From positions 1-43,908 of the forward strand of contig JAKEGK010000134.1 in assembly GCA_022627515.1 (NCBI GenBank): a stretch of 43,908 bases of DNA, given 5' to 3'. Shown piece by piece: positions 34,277-40,767 of the stretch (positions are counted from its first letter, which is position 1; every line of letters starts with the position of its first letter). The DNA is from Gammaproteobacteria bacterium. GTDB lineage: Bacteria; Pseudomonadota; Gammaproteobacteria; SZUA-152. A model generated the notes under the pieces. It worked only from the letters and a program-made list of their open reading frames with translations. It ran no database searches and had not been told where the DNA came from. A program made the position numbers and the translations under genes.

Positions 34277-35092
34277 ATGAAAGGCAATCTCAGAAAAATG
34301 ATTTCGGAAAATACCCGGCCGGTAACTTACAGTTTGCCGGTGGGTGACAACCTGGTTGCGCTCAATGAATTCTTCGGGAAAAAAATCTCGTTAGCTTTTA
34401 CCGGCACAATCAATTGCATCGCCTGCGGGCGCAAGACCAGTAAAAGTTTTAACCAGGGTTATTGTTTTCCCTGTATGCGCACACTTGCCGAGTGCGACAG
34501 TTGTATTGTGAAACCCGAACTGTGTCATTTTGCCAAAGGCACTTGCCGCGATGCCGAGTGGGCACTGTCCCACTGCATGCAGGATCATATTGTGTATCTT
34601 GCCAATTCTTCGGGAATCAAGGTGGGAATCACCCGGCACACACAAATACCCATGCGCTGGATTGATCAGGGAGCAACGCAGGCGTTGCCCATGTATCGCG
34701 TTGCCAGCCGGCATATCTCCGGCCTGATGGAAGTGATCATCAAAAATCATGTGGCGGATAAGACAGACTGGCGCAAGATGTTAAAAGGCGATCCCGAGCC
34801 TTTGGACCTGGCGGCGCAGCGTGATGATATTTTTGCGCAGTGCGAAATGGAAATAAAACAGCTCGAAGATACCTTGCCTGCAAGCAGTATTCGCATGTTG
34901 CCGGATGAAGCCGTCACCGGCATTGAATATCCGGTGCTGGAGTATCCCGCCAAAGTCGCGTCATTGAGTTTTGATAAAACACCCAACGTTACCGGCGCGC
35001 TGTTGGGCATCAAGGGCCAGTATTTGATTCTTGATAGCGGTGTCATCAATATCCGTAAATTTGGCGGGTATGAAATTGAATTTGCGGCCTAG
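34277..35092 (+). CDS. DUF2797 family protein with Cys-rich putative zinc sites
   Basis: 271 aa; CIACGRKTSKSFNQGYCFPCMRTLAECDSCIVKPELCHFAKGTCRDAEWALSHC and VYLANSSGIKVGITRHTQIPMRWIDQGATQA. Confidence 0.85.
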   Translation: MKGNLRKMISENTRPVTYSLPVGDNLVALNEFFGKKISLAFTGTINCIACGRKTSKSFNQGYCFPCMRTLAECDSCIVKPELCHFAKGTCRDAEWALSHCMQDHIVYLANSSGIKVGITRHTQIPMRWIDQGATQALPMYRVASRHISGLMEVIIKNHVADKTDWRKMLKGDPEPLDLAAQRDDIFAQCEMEIKQLEDTLPASSIRMLPDEAVTGIEYPVLEYPAKVASLSFDKTPNVTGALLGIKGQYLILDSGVINIRKFGGYEIEFAA

Positions 35093-35558: not shown

Positions 35559-36560
35559 ATGAGCCAATTAAGTACGGCTGACAAAAAACGGCTGCTTCGC
35601 AGCATGCTTTACGCGCGGCGTTTTGAAGAACGTTGTTATGAAGCTTACGTTGAACGCAAGATCGGCGGATTTTTACATTTGTATCCCGGCCAGGAAGCGT
35701 GCGCCCATGGCGTGCTTGCAGCGGCGAAAGCCGGTCATGATTATGTGATTACCGGTTACCGCGATCATGTGCATGCGATTTTGTGCGGCGCGCCACCGCG
35801 TGAAGTCATGGCGGAATTATATGGCAAGGAAACCGGTTCCAGTAAAGGCCGTGGCGGTTCCATGCATATCTTTGATGTGCGTTATCGTTTTATGGGTGGT
35901 TACGCGCTGGTGGGTGGTCCTTTCCCCTTGGCCGTGGGTATCGCCAAAGGCATCAAGATGAAAGGCGGCGATGAGATTTCCATTTGTTTCCTGGGTGACG
36001 CGGCCAACAACCAGGGTTCGTTCCATGAATCATTGAACATGGCGAAGATTTGGCAATTGCCTGTGCTGTTTGTTTGCGAAAATAATTTGTATGGTATCGG
36101 CACCCGCATTGACCGTTCCACCGCGGTATTGGATCAATACAAGCGGGTTTGCGGTTATGACATGCCTGCCAAACAAGTCGATGGCCAGGATATCGAAGTG
36201 GTTTATCAGGCGGCGCAGGAAGCCGTTAACTATGTTCGTTCCGGCAAGGGTCCTTATTTTCTGGAACTGAAAACCTATCGTTACCGCGGTCATTCCATGT
36301 CCGATTCCAACGCTTACCGCGCCAAGGAAGAAGAACAGGAGTGGGCCAGGCGCGATCCGGTGCTGATTCTGCGCGACCGGATGATCAAGGCCGGTGATAT
36401 GACGCAGGATGATTACAGCGCACTGGATAAAGAGATTATTGATGAGATCGAAAACGGCGTCATCAAATTTGCCGAGGAATCGCCGGAACCCAGGGTCGAG
36501 GAACTGGAAAAATATGTATTGGCGGAGAATGATCCATATGTACGCGGAGGGGCGAAGTAA
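35559..36560 (+). CDS. pdhA: Pyruvate dehydrogenase E1 component, alpha subunit
   Basis: 333 aa; ARRFEERCYEAYVERKIGGFLHLYPGQEA, GDAANNQGSFHESLNMAKIW, ThDP motif. Confidence 0.95.
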   Translation: MSQLSTADKKRLLRSMLYARRFEERCYEAYVERKIGGFLHLYPGQEACAHGVLAAAKAGHDYVITGYRDHVHAILCGAPPREVMAELYGKETGSSKGRGGSMHIFDVRYRFMGGYALVGGPFPLAVGIAKGIKMKGGDEISICFLGDAANNQGSFHESLNMAKIWQLPVLFVCENNLYGIGTRIDRSTAVLDQYKRVCGYDMPAKQVDGQDIEVVYQAAQEAVNYVRSGKGPYFLELKTYRYRGHSMSDSNAYRAKEEEQEWARRDPVLILRDRMIKAGDMTQDDYSALDKEIIDEIENGVIKFAEESPEPRVEELEKYVLAENDPYVRGGAK

Positions 36561-37540
36561 TGGCTGATTTAATGTATTGGGAAGCGATTCGCCGCGCGCA
36601 TGATGAAGAAATGGCGCGTGATCCGCTGGTGATTTGCATGGGTGAAGACATTGGTGTCGCGGGCGGCACTTATAAAGCCACTCAGGGATTGTATGACAAG
36701 TATGGACCGGAACGGGTTATCGATACCCCGATTTCTGAAAACGGTTACACCGGTGTCGGTATCGGCGCGTCCTTCGTGGGAGTGCGCCCGATAATTGAAA
36801 TCATGTCTGTCAACTTTGCCTGGCTGGCGATGGACCAGATCGCCAACAGCGCGGCAAAAGTACGCTATATGTCCGGCGGTCAGCTGACGGCTCCCGTGGT
36901 GATTCGCACACCCGGTGGAACCGCGCATCAATTAGGCGCGCAACACTCGGCGCGCATGGAAAAAGTCTTCATGGGTATCGCCGGATTGCGGGTGGTCACG
37001 CCGTCCAATCCCAAACAGGCTTATGGTTTGATCAAGTCCGGCGTGCGTTGCAATGATCCGGTGTTCATCAACGAGCATGAACTGATGTACAACATGAAAG
37101 GTGAGGTGCCGGACGGGGAATATTTTCATCCGCTGGAAGGTTCCGAAGTGGCGCGTCACGGTAAAGACGTTACCCTGTTCGGCTACAACATCTCGGTGCA
37201 CTGGTGCCTGCAGGCCGCTGACGTGCTTTCCAAACAACATGGAATCGACGCGGAAGTGGTGGATCTTTATGCCTTGAGTCCGCTGGACCGGGCCGGCATT
37301 GCGGAATCCGTTTCCAAAACCCACCGCGCCGTTATCGTTGAAGAAGCCGAACCCATGGTCGGCGTTGGCGCGGAAGTGATGGCGATTATCAATGAAGAGT
37401 GTTTCTTTGAGCTGGATGCGGCGCCGGTGCGGGTGTCTGCGGCTACCGTACCCATCCCGTTTAACCGCACGCTGGAAAAAGCCACCATTCCCAATGCGAA
37501 CGATGTGGTTAAGGCCGTATTAAAGATGTTCGGTAAATAA
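36560..37540 (+). CDS. pdhB: Pyruvate dehydrogenase E1 component, beta subunit
   Basis: 326 aa; CMGEDIGVAGGTYKATQGL, RVIDTPISENGYTGVGIGASFVGVRPIIE; overlaps E1alpha stop. Confidence 0.96.
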   Translation: MADLMYWEAIRRAHDEEMARDPLVICMGEDIGVAGGTYKATQGLYDKYGPERVIDTPISENGYTGVGIGASFVGVRPIIEIMSVNFAWLAMDQIANSAAKVRYMSGGQLTAPVVIRTPGGTAHQLGAQHSARMEKVFMGIAGLRVVTPSNPKQAYGLIKSGVRCNDPVFINEHELMYNMKGEVPDGEYFHPLEGSEVARHGKDVTLFGYNISVHWCLQAADVLSKQHGIDAEVVDLYALSPLDRAGIAESVSKTHRAVIVEEAEPMVGVGAEVMAIINEECFFELDAAPVRVSAATVPIPFNRTLEKATIPNANDVVKAVLKMFGK

Positions 37541-37600
37541 AGGAAGCTATAACCAGGAAGTAATCAACAAGCCGAATGATCTGTAAACCGGGGATACACA

Positions 37601-37646
37601 TTGGTTAACGTCGAAGTAATTGGTTAACGACGAAATATTAGTTAAC
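37601..37646. repeat. Three spaced copies of TTGGTTAAC-like motif
   Basis: TTGGTTAACGTCGAAGTA (37601), TTGGTTAACGACGAAATA (37620), TTAGTTAAC (37638); spacing 19 and 18 bp. Confidence 0.8.
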
Positions 37647-37683
37647 TGCCAGGTAAAAATTAACATCAAAGTATATAGCTGCT

Positions 37684-40600
37684 ATGTCTGAACCGTATGT
37701 AATTAAAATGCCCCAGCTTTCCGATACCATGACTGAAGGCGTGGTGGTGAGCTGGGAAAAACAAATCGGCGACAAGGTCGAACGCGGTGATATTGTTGCC
37801 ACCGTTGAAACGGACAAGGCCATTATGGATGTGGAAGTATTTCGGGAAGGTTATTTATCCGGTCCCATTGCAAATGTTGACAGCGTGGTGGCTGTCGGTG
37901 ATGCAATTGCCTATCTGGTGGCAAACGCCGGTGAAGCGCAGGGCGCAGAAGCGAAAGCGCCTATTACTGCGGCCGAATCAAAAGCTGCGCCCGAGCCGGT
38001 TTCCAGAAAGCCGGCAGGCGCATCCCATGTGATCAAGATGCCGCAGTTATCCGACACCATGACCGAAGGCGTGGTGGTGAGCTGGGAAAAAAAGCTCGGC
38101 GACAGGATAGAGCGCGGTGATGTGGTGGCGCAGGTCGAAACTGACAAAGCCATCATGGATGTGGAAGTGTTCCGCGAAGGTTACCTGTCCGGTCCCATTG
38201 CCGAAGTGGACAGCGTGCTGCCGGTGGGCGGAGCGATGGCCTATCTGGTGGACGACGCGTCACAGGTTATCAAGGAAGGCAGCGTGACAACGGTTGCCGC
38301 CAAAGATGAAGATGTCACCAGTCCTTCCAAGCAGGACAAACGCCACCTGATTGCGGCGGCCCATCCGGCGCCGGGACACAAAGCGCCTGAGTTACATATG
38401 ATCGTCACCGGCAAACCGGCGGCGCGCCCCGACAATAAATACGCCACGCCATTTGCGAGAAAGCTTGCCGGTTCCCTGCATGTTAATTTGAATACCTTGA
38501 AAGGCTCCGGCGCTAACGGCGTAATTGTGGCGGCGGATGTGCGCCGCGCGCAACCGTTGCAGCGTCCTTCCGAAGTCATGGAGGTCACACCCGCGCACGT
38601 GATGCCGGAAGTGCAAGTGCCCGGGCATGGGCGTCCCATGACCGCGATGGAACGCGCGGTCAGTCATTCAATGACCGCCTCCTTAACCATGCCGACATTC
38701 CGTGTGTCGATAAACGCGCAACCGGCAGCATTGATTAAGGCCTCCAAAGCCAAAGGTGTATCCGTTACCGTAGCCATAGCCAAGGCGTGTGCGTTGGCTA
38801 TGAAAAAACATCCCACCATAAACTGGTGTTACCAGCCGGTGGACAAACTCGTGGAGCGCGACCAGGTGGATGTCGGTATGGCGGTAGCCGCGGAAGGCGG
38901 CGGCCTGGTTGTTCCGGTATTGCGGCATTGCGAATCCCGCAGCCTTGAGGAACTTCATGAAATCTGGTCCGACCTGGTTGACCGTGGCCGCCGGCGCCGT
39001 CTCGCTCCGGAAGAATACGCTAACCCTACTTTCATGGTTTCCAACATGGGCATGCTGGGTGTGAGTTATTTTGACGCCATACCCACACCGGGTACCGCGG
39101 CGATTCTCGCCATTTCTTCGGCCGGTCCCGAAGGCATGCCATTGACCGTAACCGCCGACCACCGCGTGGTGAATGGCGCGGAAGTCGCGCAGTATTTGAA
39201 TACCCTGAAACAAAAAATCGAAAACCCCGAAGAATGGATGGGGCCGATTGGTCCGGCGATTCCCGAGGGTGACTGGGATTACGATGTGGTGATAATCGGC
39301 GGCGGACCCGGTGGCGAGGATTGCGCACGCGATCTGGCCTCGCACGGTTTGAAAGTCGCCATGATTAATGATTCCAAGTATCCCGGCGGCGAATGTTTGT
39401 GGCGCGGCTGTATTCCTTCCAAGGCCTGGCGCGCCGCCGCTGACCGCATCCGTGACCGCGCCCATGATGAACACCTGGGCGTGGAAGGAACCACCAAGGC
39501 AAAACTGAACTGGGAAAAACTCGAAGCCACGCGGCGCCATGTGCTGGAAACCCGCGGCGACATGGCGCTGAAGACCGACACTGGAGTGCGCATCAAAGTG
39601 ATTCAGGGATTTGCGTTATTTGAAACGGATCACCGCGTGTTTGTCGATACCTCCGGCAACAGCGACAATCCGCACAAGCGCGCCAAACAAGGTGATGGCA
39701 GTAAAGGCGAACACATTACTTTTGGCGCGGCGGTGATCGCCACCGGCGCGCCGCCGTTTGTGCCGCCGATTCCCGGCGCTATTGATGGTTTGAAAACCGG
39801 TGATGTATTAACGTCCGACACGGTATGGTTTTTGGAAACTGTGCCGAAAAAGATCGGCATTATCGGAGGCGGCGCGATCGGAGTGGAAATGGCGCAAATC
39901 TTTCAGGACTTTGGCGCCGAAGTGGTGCTGGTGGAGGGCAAGGACCGCATCCTGGCCGAAGTGGAACCGGAGATCGCCAAGCAGTTAACCGAGGTGCTGA
40001 ACAGCGATCCCAATATCAAGATCTTCACTTCCGCCAAAGTGGAAGAAATCAAACACCGCAGCAACAAGCGTAAAACACAATTAGTGTTTGAAAGCGTTGA
40101 AGGCAGTAAACACCGTTACGCCTGCGACTATGTGCTCATGGCGACCGGAAAACGTCCCGATCTTAATCCATTGCAGCTGCAGAACGCTGGCGTGCAAATG
40201 GAGAATGGCGTCATTAAAGCCGACGCCCGTTGCCGCACCAGTGTTCCGCACATTTTCGCCGTGGGTGATGTGATTGGCGGTTACATGCTGGCGCATACCG
40301 CGGGACAACAGGGACGCGTTGCCGCCGCCAACCTGCTGGGCGAAGATATGAAGTACGATCAAAACAAGGATTCCGGTGTGATCTTTACCCGCCCTGAGGC
40401 GGCGTTTGTCGGGTTGTCCGCCGAGCAGGCGAAAGCGCAGGGCATCGATGCCGTGGAAGTGAAAATGCCCATGAATATTGACGCCAAGGCGATGATCAAC
40501 AATGAACTGCATGGCATGATCAAAATCGTCGCGGACAAGAAAAACCATCGCGTCATCGGTGTGCATTACCTTGCCGATCATGCCAATACCCTGGTGGGTG

Positions 40601-40767
40601 AAGGCGTGATGATGGTGTCCGGGGAGATGACACTGGAACAGGTGGCTAACGCCATCCATCCGCATCCCACCCAGACGGAAATGTTTGGCGAAATGGCGCG
40701 GCGTTTGTTGAGCCGTTTGCGCCGCAGCAGCCAGCAAAAACAAAAAGCCGCAGCCGCCGCAAAATAA
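37684..40767 (+). CDS. Fused dihydrolipoamide acetyltransferase (E2, two lipoyl domains) - dihydrolipoamide dehydrogenase (E3)
   Basis: 1027 aa uninterrupted ORF: lipoyl domains ETDKAIMDVEV x2, PSBD YATPFARKLA, E2 core ending DHRVVNGAEVAQYL, then DYDVVIIGGGPGGEDCARDLASHG, GGECLWRGCIPSKAW, FAVGDVIG, HPHPTQTEMFGE. Confidence 0.95.
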   Translation: MSEPYVIKMPQLSDTMTEGVVVSWEKQIGDKVERGDIVATVETDKAIMDVEVFREGYLSGPIANVDSVVAVGDAIAYLVANAGEAQGAEAKAPITAAESKAAPEPVSRKPAGASHVIKMPQLSDTMTEGVVVSWEKKLGDRIERGDVVAQVETDKAIMDVEVFREGYLSGPIAEVDSVLPVGGAMAYLVDDASQVIKEGSVTTVAAKDEDVTSPSKQDKRHLIAAAHPAPGHKAPELHMIVTGKPAARPDNKYATPFARKLAGSLHVNLNTLKGSGANGVIVAADVRRAQPLQRPSEVMEVTPAHVMPEVQVPGHGRPMTAMERAVSHSMTASLTMPTFRVSINAQPAALIKASKAKGVSVTVAIAKACALAMKKHPTINWCYQPVDKLVERDQVDVGMAVAAEGGGLVVPVLRHCESRSLEELHEIWSDLVDRGRRRRLAPEEYANPTFMVSNMGMLGVSYFDAIPTPGTAAILAISSAGPEGMPLTVTADHRVVNGAEVAQYLNTLKQKIENPEEWMGPIGPAIPEGDWDYDVVIIGGGPGGEDCARDLASHGLKVAMINDSKYPGGECLWRGCIPSKAWRAAADRIRDRAHDEHLGVEGTTKAKLNWEKLEATRRHVLETRGDMALKTDTGVRIKVIQGFALFETDHRVFVDTSGNSDNPHKRAKQGDGSKGEHITFGAAVIATGAPPFVPPIPGAIDGLKTGDVLTSDTVWFLETVPKKIGIIGGGAIGVEMAQIFQDFGAEVVLVEGKDRILAEVEPEIAKQLTEVLNSDPNIKIFTSAKVEEIKHRSNKRKTQLVFESVEGSKHRYACDYVLMATGKRPDLNPLQLQNAGVQMENGVIKADARCRTSVPHIFAVGDVIGGYMLAHTAGQQGRVAAANLLGEDMKYDQNKDSGVIFTRPEAAFVGLSAEQAKAQGIDAVEVKMPMNIDAKAMINNELHGMIKIVADKKNHRVIGVHYLADHANTLVGEGVMMVSGEMTLEQVANAIHPHPTQTEMFGEMARRLLSRLRRSSQQKQKAAAAAK
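37699..38250 (+). repeat. Tandem duplication of the lipoyl domain, 330-bp period (37699-37920 and 38029-38250)
   Basis: VIKMPQLSDTMTEGVVVSWEK...ETDKAIMDVEVFREGYLSGPIA nearly identical in both copies. Confidence 0.93.

Follow-up and report, generated by a model that had tools for sequence, protein, structure and literature searches.

The window, a stretch of 43,908 nt of gammaproteobacterial DNA, carries a gene that joins the E2 and E3 subunits of a pyruvate dehydrogenase (PDH) complex in one polypeptide of 1027 aa, and this protein is very probably the E2-E3 subunit of a three-gene PDH complex (E1-alpha, E1-beta, E2-E3), as judged from its domains, its catalytic residues and the genes beside it. 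The PDH subunits E2 and E3 are usually separate proteins. To our knowledge such a fusion has already been described, which makes the window's copy another example of a known oddity and not a new finding; its distribution and its conserved linker may be undocumented so far.

Domain architecture and identity of the complex

The features of the locus are as follows.

35559..36560, + strand: E1-alpha, pyruvate dehydrogenase type (PF00676, E=2.4e-84; TIGR03182, 412 bits, cut-off 393.85)
36560..37540, + strand: E1-beta (PF02779, PF02780; NF006667, 371.7 bits, cut-off 321)
37541..37683, + strand: intergenic, containing a 19-nt repeat in three tandem copies (37600-37655)
37684..40767, + strand: E2-E3 fusion gene, 1027 aa, ATG start, stop-free inside
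37702..37917, + strand: first lipoyl domain, residues 7-78, with Lys45 of ETDKA as the lipoyl lysine (PF00364)
38032..38247, + strand: lipoyl domain 2, about residues 117-188, Lys155 (second PF00364 stretch)
38440..38544, + strand: peripheral-subunit-binding domain (PSBD), residues 253-287 (PF02817, 41.0 bits, cut-off 23.7)
38632..39240, + strand: E2 acyltransferase core, residues 317-519, catalytic His493, together with Asn497, in DHRVVNG (PF00198, E=1.8e-46)
39241..39279, + strand: E2-E3 linker, residues 520-532, GPIGPAIPEGDWD, between PF00198 and PF07992
39280..40695, + strand: E3, residues 533-1004, FAD/NAD domains, CLWRGC disulphide, dimerisation domain with HPHPTQTE (PF07992, PF02852)

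The first-pass annotation, made from the sequence before any search, had read this gene as a single unbroken ORF with two lipoyl domains, a PSBD, an E2 core and a full E3, and the Pfam matches bear this out: two Biotin_lipoyl, E3_binding, 2-oxoacid_dh, Pyr_redox_2 and Pyr_redox_dim domains follow one another in that order, all above the curated cut-offs (best Biotin_lipoyl match at residues 7-78, Pyr_redox_2 at 533-877, Pyr_redox_dim at 898-1004). It was also correct that the fusion sets the ratio of E2 to E3 chains at 1:1. Two details needed adjustment. The linker, given as about 14 aa, is indeed short, with an exact length between the Pfam domains of 13 aa, and the motif HPHPTQTE, described as C-terminal, lies near the C-terminus (residues 992-999) with 28 more residues beyond it.

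The E2 half has the order of a PDH-type E2, with lipoyl domains bearing an ETDKA-type lysine, then the PSBD and the catalytic core, and its DHRVVNG conforms to the catalytic motif DHRxx(D/N)G; an Asn at the position of N497 is also found in a known active E2p. The E3 half has the FAD/NAD domains, the redox Cys pair and the dimerisation domain with its His-Glu. Residues H493, N497 and G498 of E2 and Cys571, Cys576, His994 and Glu999 of E3 are invariant in 79 aligned fusions, as is lipoyl K155 (79/79), and K45 is present in all 71 of the aligned fusions having that column. The E3 active-site loop reads CLWRGC (39394-39411, residues 571-576) in all 79 fusions, and CLNVGC in common E3 proteins.

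PDH-type E1 genes lie in the same cluster, the start codon of E1-beta overlapping the stop codon of E1-alpha (TAATG at 36560), and both genes were found upstream of the fusion in 62/62 loci with enough upstream sequence. The E2 half scored 307.3 bits against TIGR01349, the NCBIfam equivalog for PDH E2 (cut-off 445), and the E3 half 386 bits against the equivalog TIGR01350 (cut-off 408.8), scores that are diagnostic and not mechanistic; because both fall below the cut-offs, the substrate and the partner were assigned mainly from the E1 genes. These two scores and the unusual active-site loop would fit a complex that oxidises acetoin or a 2-oxo acid other than pyruvate, but E1-alpha and E1-beta both score above their PDH cut-offs and the nearest solved relatives of the E2 half are PDH E2 cores, so that we consider another substrate improbable. 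Among solved structures the best sequence match of the E3 half was 1ebd (E=4.4e-64), and a fold search with the full model placed E3 crystal structures best, with only E3 among the 50 matches listed, so that this search bears on the E3 half alone.

Under the assignment to PDH, the complex would convert pyruvate to acetyl-CoA in a RuBisCO-bearing gammaproteobacterium: E1 would load the lipoyl arms with acetyl groups, the E2 core would pass these to CoA, and the tethered E3 would re-oxidise the arms with NAD+. The general picture of pyruvate dehydrogenase function is left unchanged by the fusion. The host is probably an autotroph, since by their ORF translations the first genes of the window encode part of a RuBisCO large subunit and cbbQ/cbbO-like proteins. 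Elsewhere the same genome encodes a full 2-oxoglutarate dehydrogenase cluster (sucA-sucB-lpd-like) with its own E2 and E3, so the fused E3 would not be needed by other complexes, and a further standalone E2 with a lipoyl domain, PSBD and core (L006, contig C194 of genome G000). Downstream of the fusion are a gene for a cNMP-binding-domain protein and also argG, the latter by its sequence; a DUF2797 protein is encoded at 34277-35092, upstream of the E1 genes. The three 19-nt repeats between E1-beta and the fusion gene (ATTGGTTAACG...) are possible regulator sites, and visual inspection of the intergenic DNA of one relative (L029) revealed none.

Authenticity, distribution and history of the fusion

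A missed stop or a frameshift could have merged two adjacent genes, given that the source genome is a draft assembly of 312 contigs and that elsewhere the genes for E2 and E3 are often neighbours, as a search of plasmid records indicated. That search gave no match above 60% identity, and its top listed matches were multi-piece or, where annotated, adjacent E2 and E3 genes. Against an artefact, the retrieved loci contain 71 fusions that each run full-length in a single ORF, a count that includes the window's own; they share 56-83% identity with the window protein and come from many assemblies, including those of the cultured Thiohalophilus thiocyanatoxydans and Thiohalobacter thiocyanaticus, and their linkers contain invariant residues. 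The check for a sequencing error at the E2-E3 junction, for which the first-pass annotation had looked to the raw reads, was thus answered by homologues, and the comparative data (homologous fused ORFs and a conserved linker) rule out an origin by missed stop or frameshift, leaving it a negligible probability.

In an even sample of Gammaproteobacteria, 77/369 genomes, about a fifth, had matches at E <= 1e-150, most of them crossing the join and some partial or at contig ends, so that the count may slightly exceed that of proven fusions. Only 3/399 genomes of a phylum sample matched, all three in the same class. A scan of genome_contigs recovered 152 stretches encoding relatives, and among the best 80 of these 152 almost every label was Gammaproteobacteria, Proteobacteria or a taxon inside one of the two. 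Within the host's own family, full-length matches at 81-83% occurred in two genomes, and the other sampled members had separate E2 and E3 only. The earlier reservation that the fusion might prove common and already described therefore largely holds, for its frequency by these counts and for its prior description by a 1997 report on an iron oxidiser, taken up below.

In the E2 tree a branch with support 93/62 sets the fused halves apart, and in the E3 tree one with support 100/99 does so; both trees contain few unfused controls, and long branches were flagged. As the fused E2 halves and the fused E3 halves each group together, the simplest history would be a single fusion that was then inherited, with losses or transfers along the way, for which the trees are suggestive only. 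Spread beyond the class was considered for one record titled Desulfobacteraceae UBA2771 (L083, DEIP01000076.1) and rejected, its fusion falling among gammaproteobacterial sequences in both trees; the record is probably a mislabelled or contaminated bin.

The closest unfused counterparts belong to the same family as the host (G001 and G013). Their E2 is about 40-42% identical to that of the fusion and is likewise clustered with E1-beta, and in G013 with E1-alpha too, but it stops at the core, and the closest E3 of G013 lies elsewhere in the genome. The nearest unfused E2 of the family adjoins E1 genes and a phosphoenolpyruvate synthase-like gene. The sister E2 proteins have in common with the fusions a shortened segment of the core before DHR, which therefore probably predates the fusion, judging from this comparison of sequences.

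Powles and Rawlings are said to have reported, in 1997, an unusual E2-E3 subunit fusion in the iron oxidiser Thiobacillus (Acidithiobacillus) ferrooxidans. The PDH of this chemolithoautotroph, which as far as can be told is a different organism from the source of the window, would consist, like that of the window, of E1-alpha, E1-beta and a fused E2-E3. No open paper describing an E2-E3 fusion was found in our literature search. The pyruvate dehydrogenase of A. ferrooxidans comprises three genes, AFE3068-70 (PMC2621215), which fits a fusion there and is not proof of it.

Linker, core assembly and the role of the PSBD

The junction is conserved across the fusions. Two residues are the same in all 79 fusions, W518 where the core ends and G529 within the linker; residue 531 is aromatic in every one of the 79, and residue 519 is Met, Leu, Ile or Val. 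In 56/79 fusions the spacing between W518 and the E3 glycine motif is constant; a sub-group carries an Ala/Pro-rich insert that extends it to up to 49 residues, so a rigid geometry would not be required. An AlphaFold2 model built with 65 sequences had a mean pLDDT of 83, with 78 for the linker block 521-530 and 36-48 for the lipoyl-lipoyl, lipoyl-PSBD and PSBD-core linkers. The E2-E3 linker is thus modelled as fairly ordered; the pTM of 0.61 is modest and makes the relative placement of the domains unusable.

In the fusion, E3 would be held near the point where the E2 core ends, the lipoyl arms swinging among E1, E2 and E3 as elsewhere. E3 forms two-fold dimers, and the C-termini of known E2 cores meet at two-fold contacts between trimers. 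From these two symmetries we tentatively propose, as the least certain part of our reading, that two neighbouring E2 chains could feed one tethered E3 dimer, one dimer per two E2 chains, with no help from the PSBD, which might then serve mainly E1. The fusion is in this respect a natural, long-lived test of the need for a PSBD in holding E3.

Since the C-terminal residues of known E2 cores form the contact between trimers, a C-terminal E3 might instead block that contact and leave the fused protein as trimers or other small oligomers with no 24- or 60-mer core, and OdhA, the fused E1-E2 of Corynebacterium glutamicum, is a precedent for a non-cubic complex. The hydrophobic C-terminus of the core is, however, retained (W518 invariant, a Met, Leu, Ile or Val at 519), as expected of a working anchor, and we see small oligomers as conceivable but somewhat doubtful.

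The first-pass annotation had asked whether the PSBD now binds only E1. In the E3-PSBD structure of B. stearothermophilus (1EBD), Arg139 and Arg156 are E3-binding arginines. In a by-eye alignment to that structure, the equivalents of the two arginines were never Arg in the 79 fusions, and that of E3 Glu431 was mostly Ser or Ala; at these positions the unfused controls vary too, and some unfused relatives have also changed the arginines, so that the changes do not show a PSBD dedicated to E1.

Other multi-component chains and a fused E1

Other proteins also join components of 2-oxo acid dehydrogenase complexes. OdhA/Kgd of Actinobacteria likewise carries two components in one chain, but what it links is E1 and an E2 domain, where the window protein links E2 and E3, and the substrate is 2-oxoglutarate; such E1/E2 fusion proteins of 2-oxoglutarate dehydrogenase were among the solved structures matched. 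Neisseria P64K (1ojt, 5u25), of the lipoyl-E3 type, resembles the fusion in having an E3 with an extra N-terminal complex domain. In P64K-type proteins, presumably, only a lipoyl domain is joined to E3, with neither an E2 core nor a PSBD.

At three loci E1-alpha and E1-beta also form one ORF, of 686-687 residues from stop to stop, directly upstream of the E2-E3 fusion (L034:2844-4904; L039:2587-4647; L098:2840-4897); all E1 domains are present in that of L034. In the class sample the same E1 fusion, stop-free, was found in three genomes of family f113 belonging to two genera (G130, G246 and G343), each of which matches the E2-E3 protein across both halves. With both fusions, the PDH complex of this family would consist of two polypeptides. 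Taken jointly, pairs of E2 C-termini feeding tethered E3 dimers, a PSBD that binds only E1 and a complex of two polypeptides in one family make up a reading that is possible and that we would hold with some reserve. With E2 and E3 fixed at 1:1, a conserved linker and, in one family, a fused E1, the complex is compact and could be amenable to structure determination. A separate and more distant (46%) ORF fusing E1-alpha and E1-beta was observed in a genome of another family (G369:C126:23667-25649).
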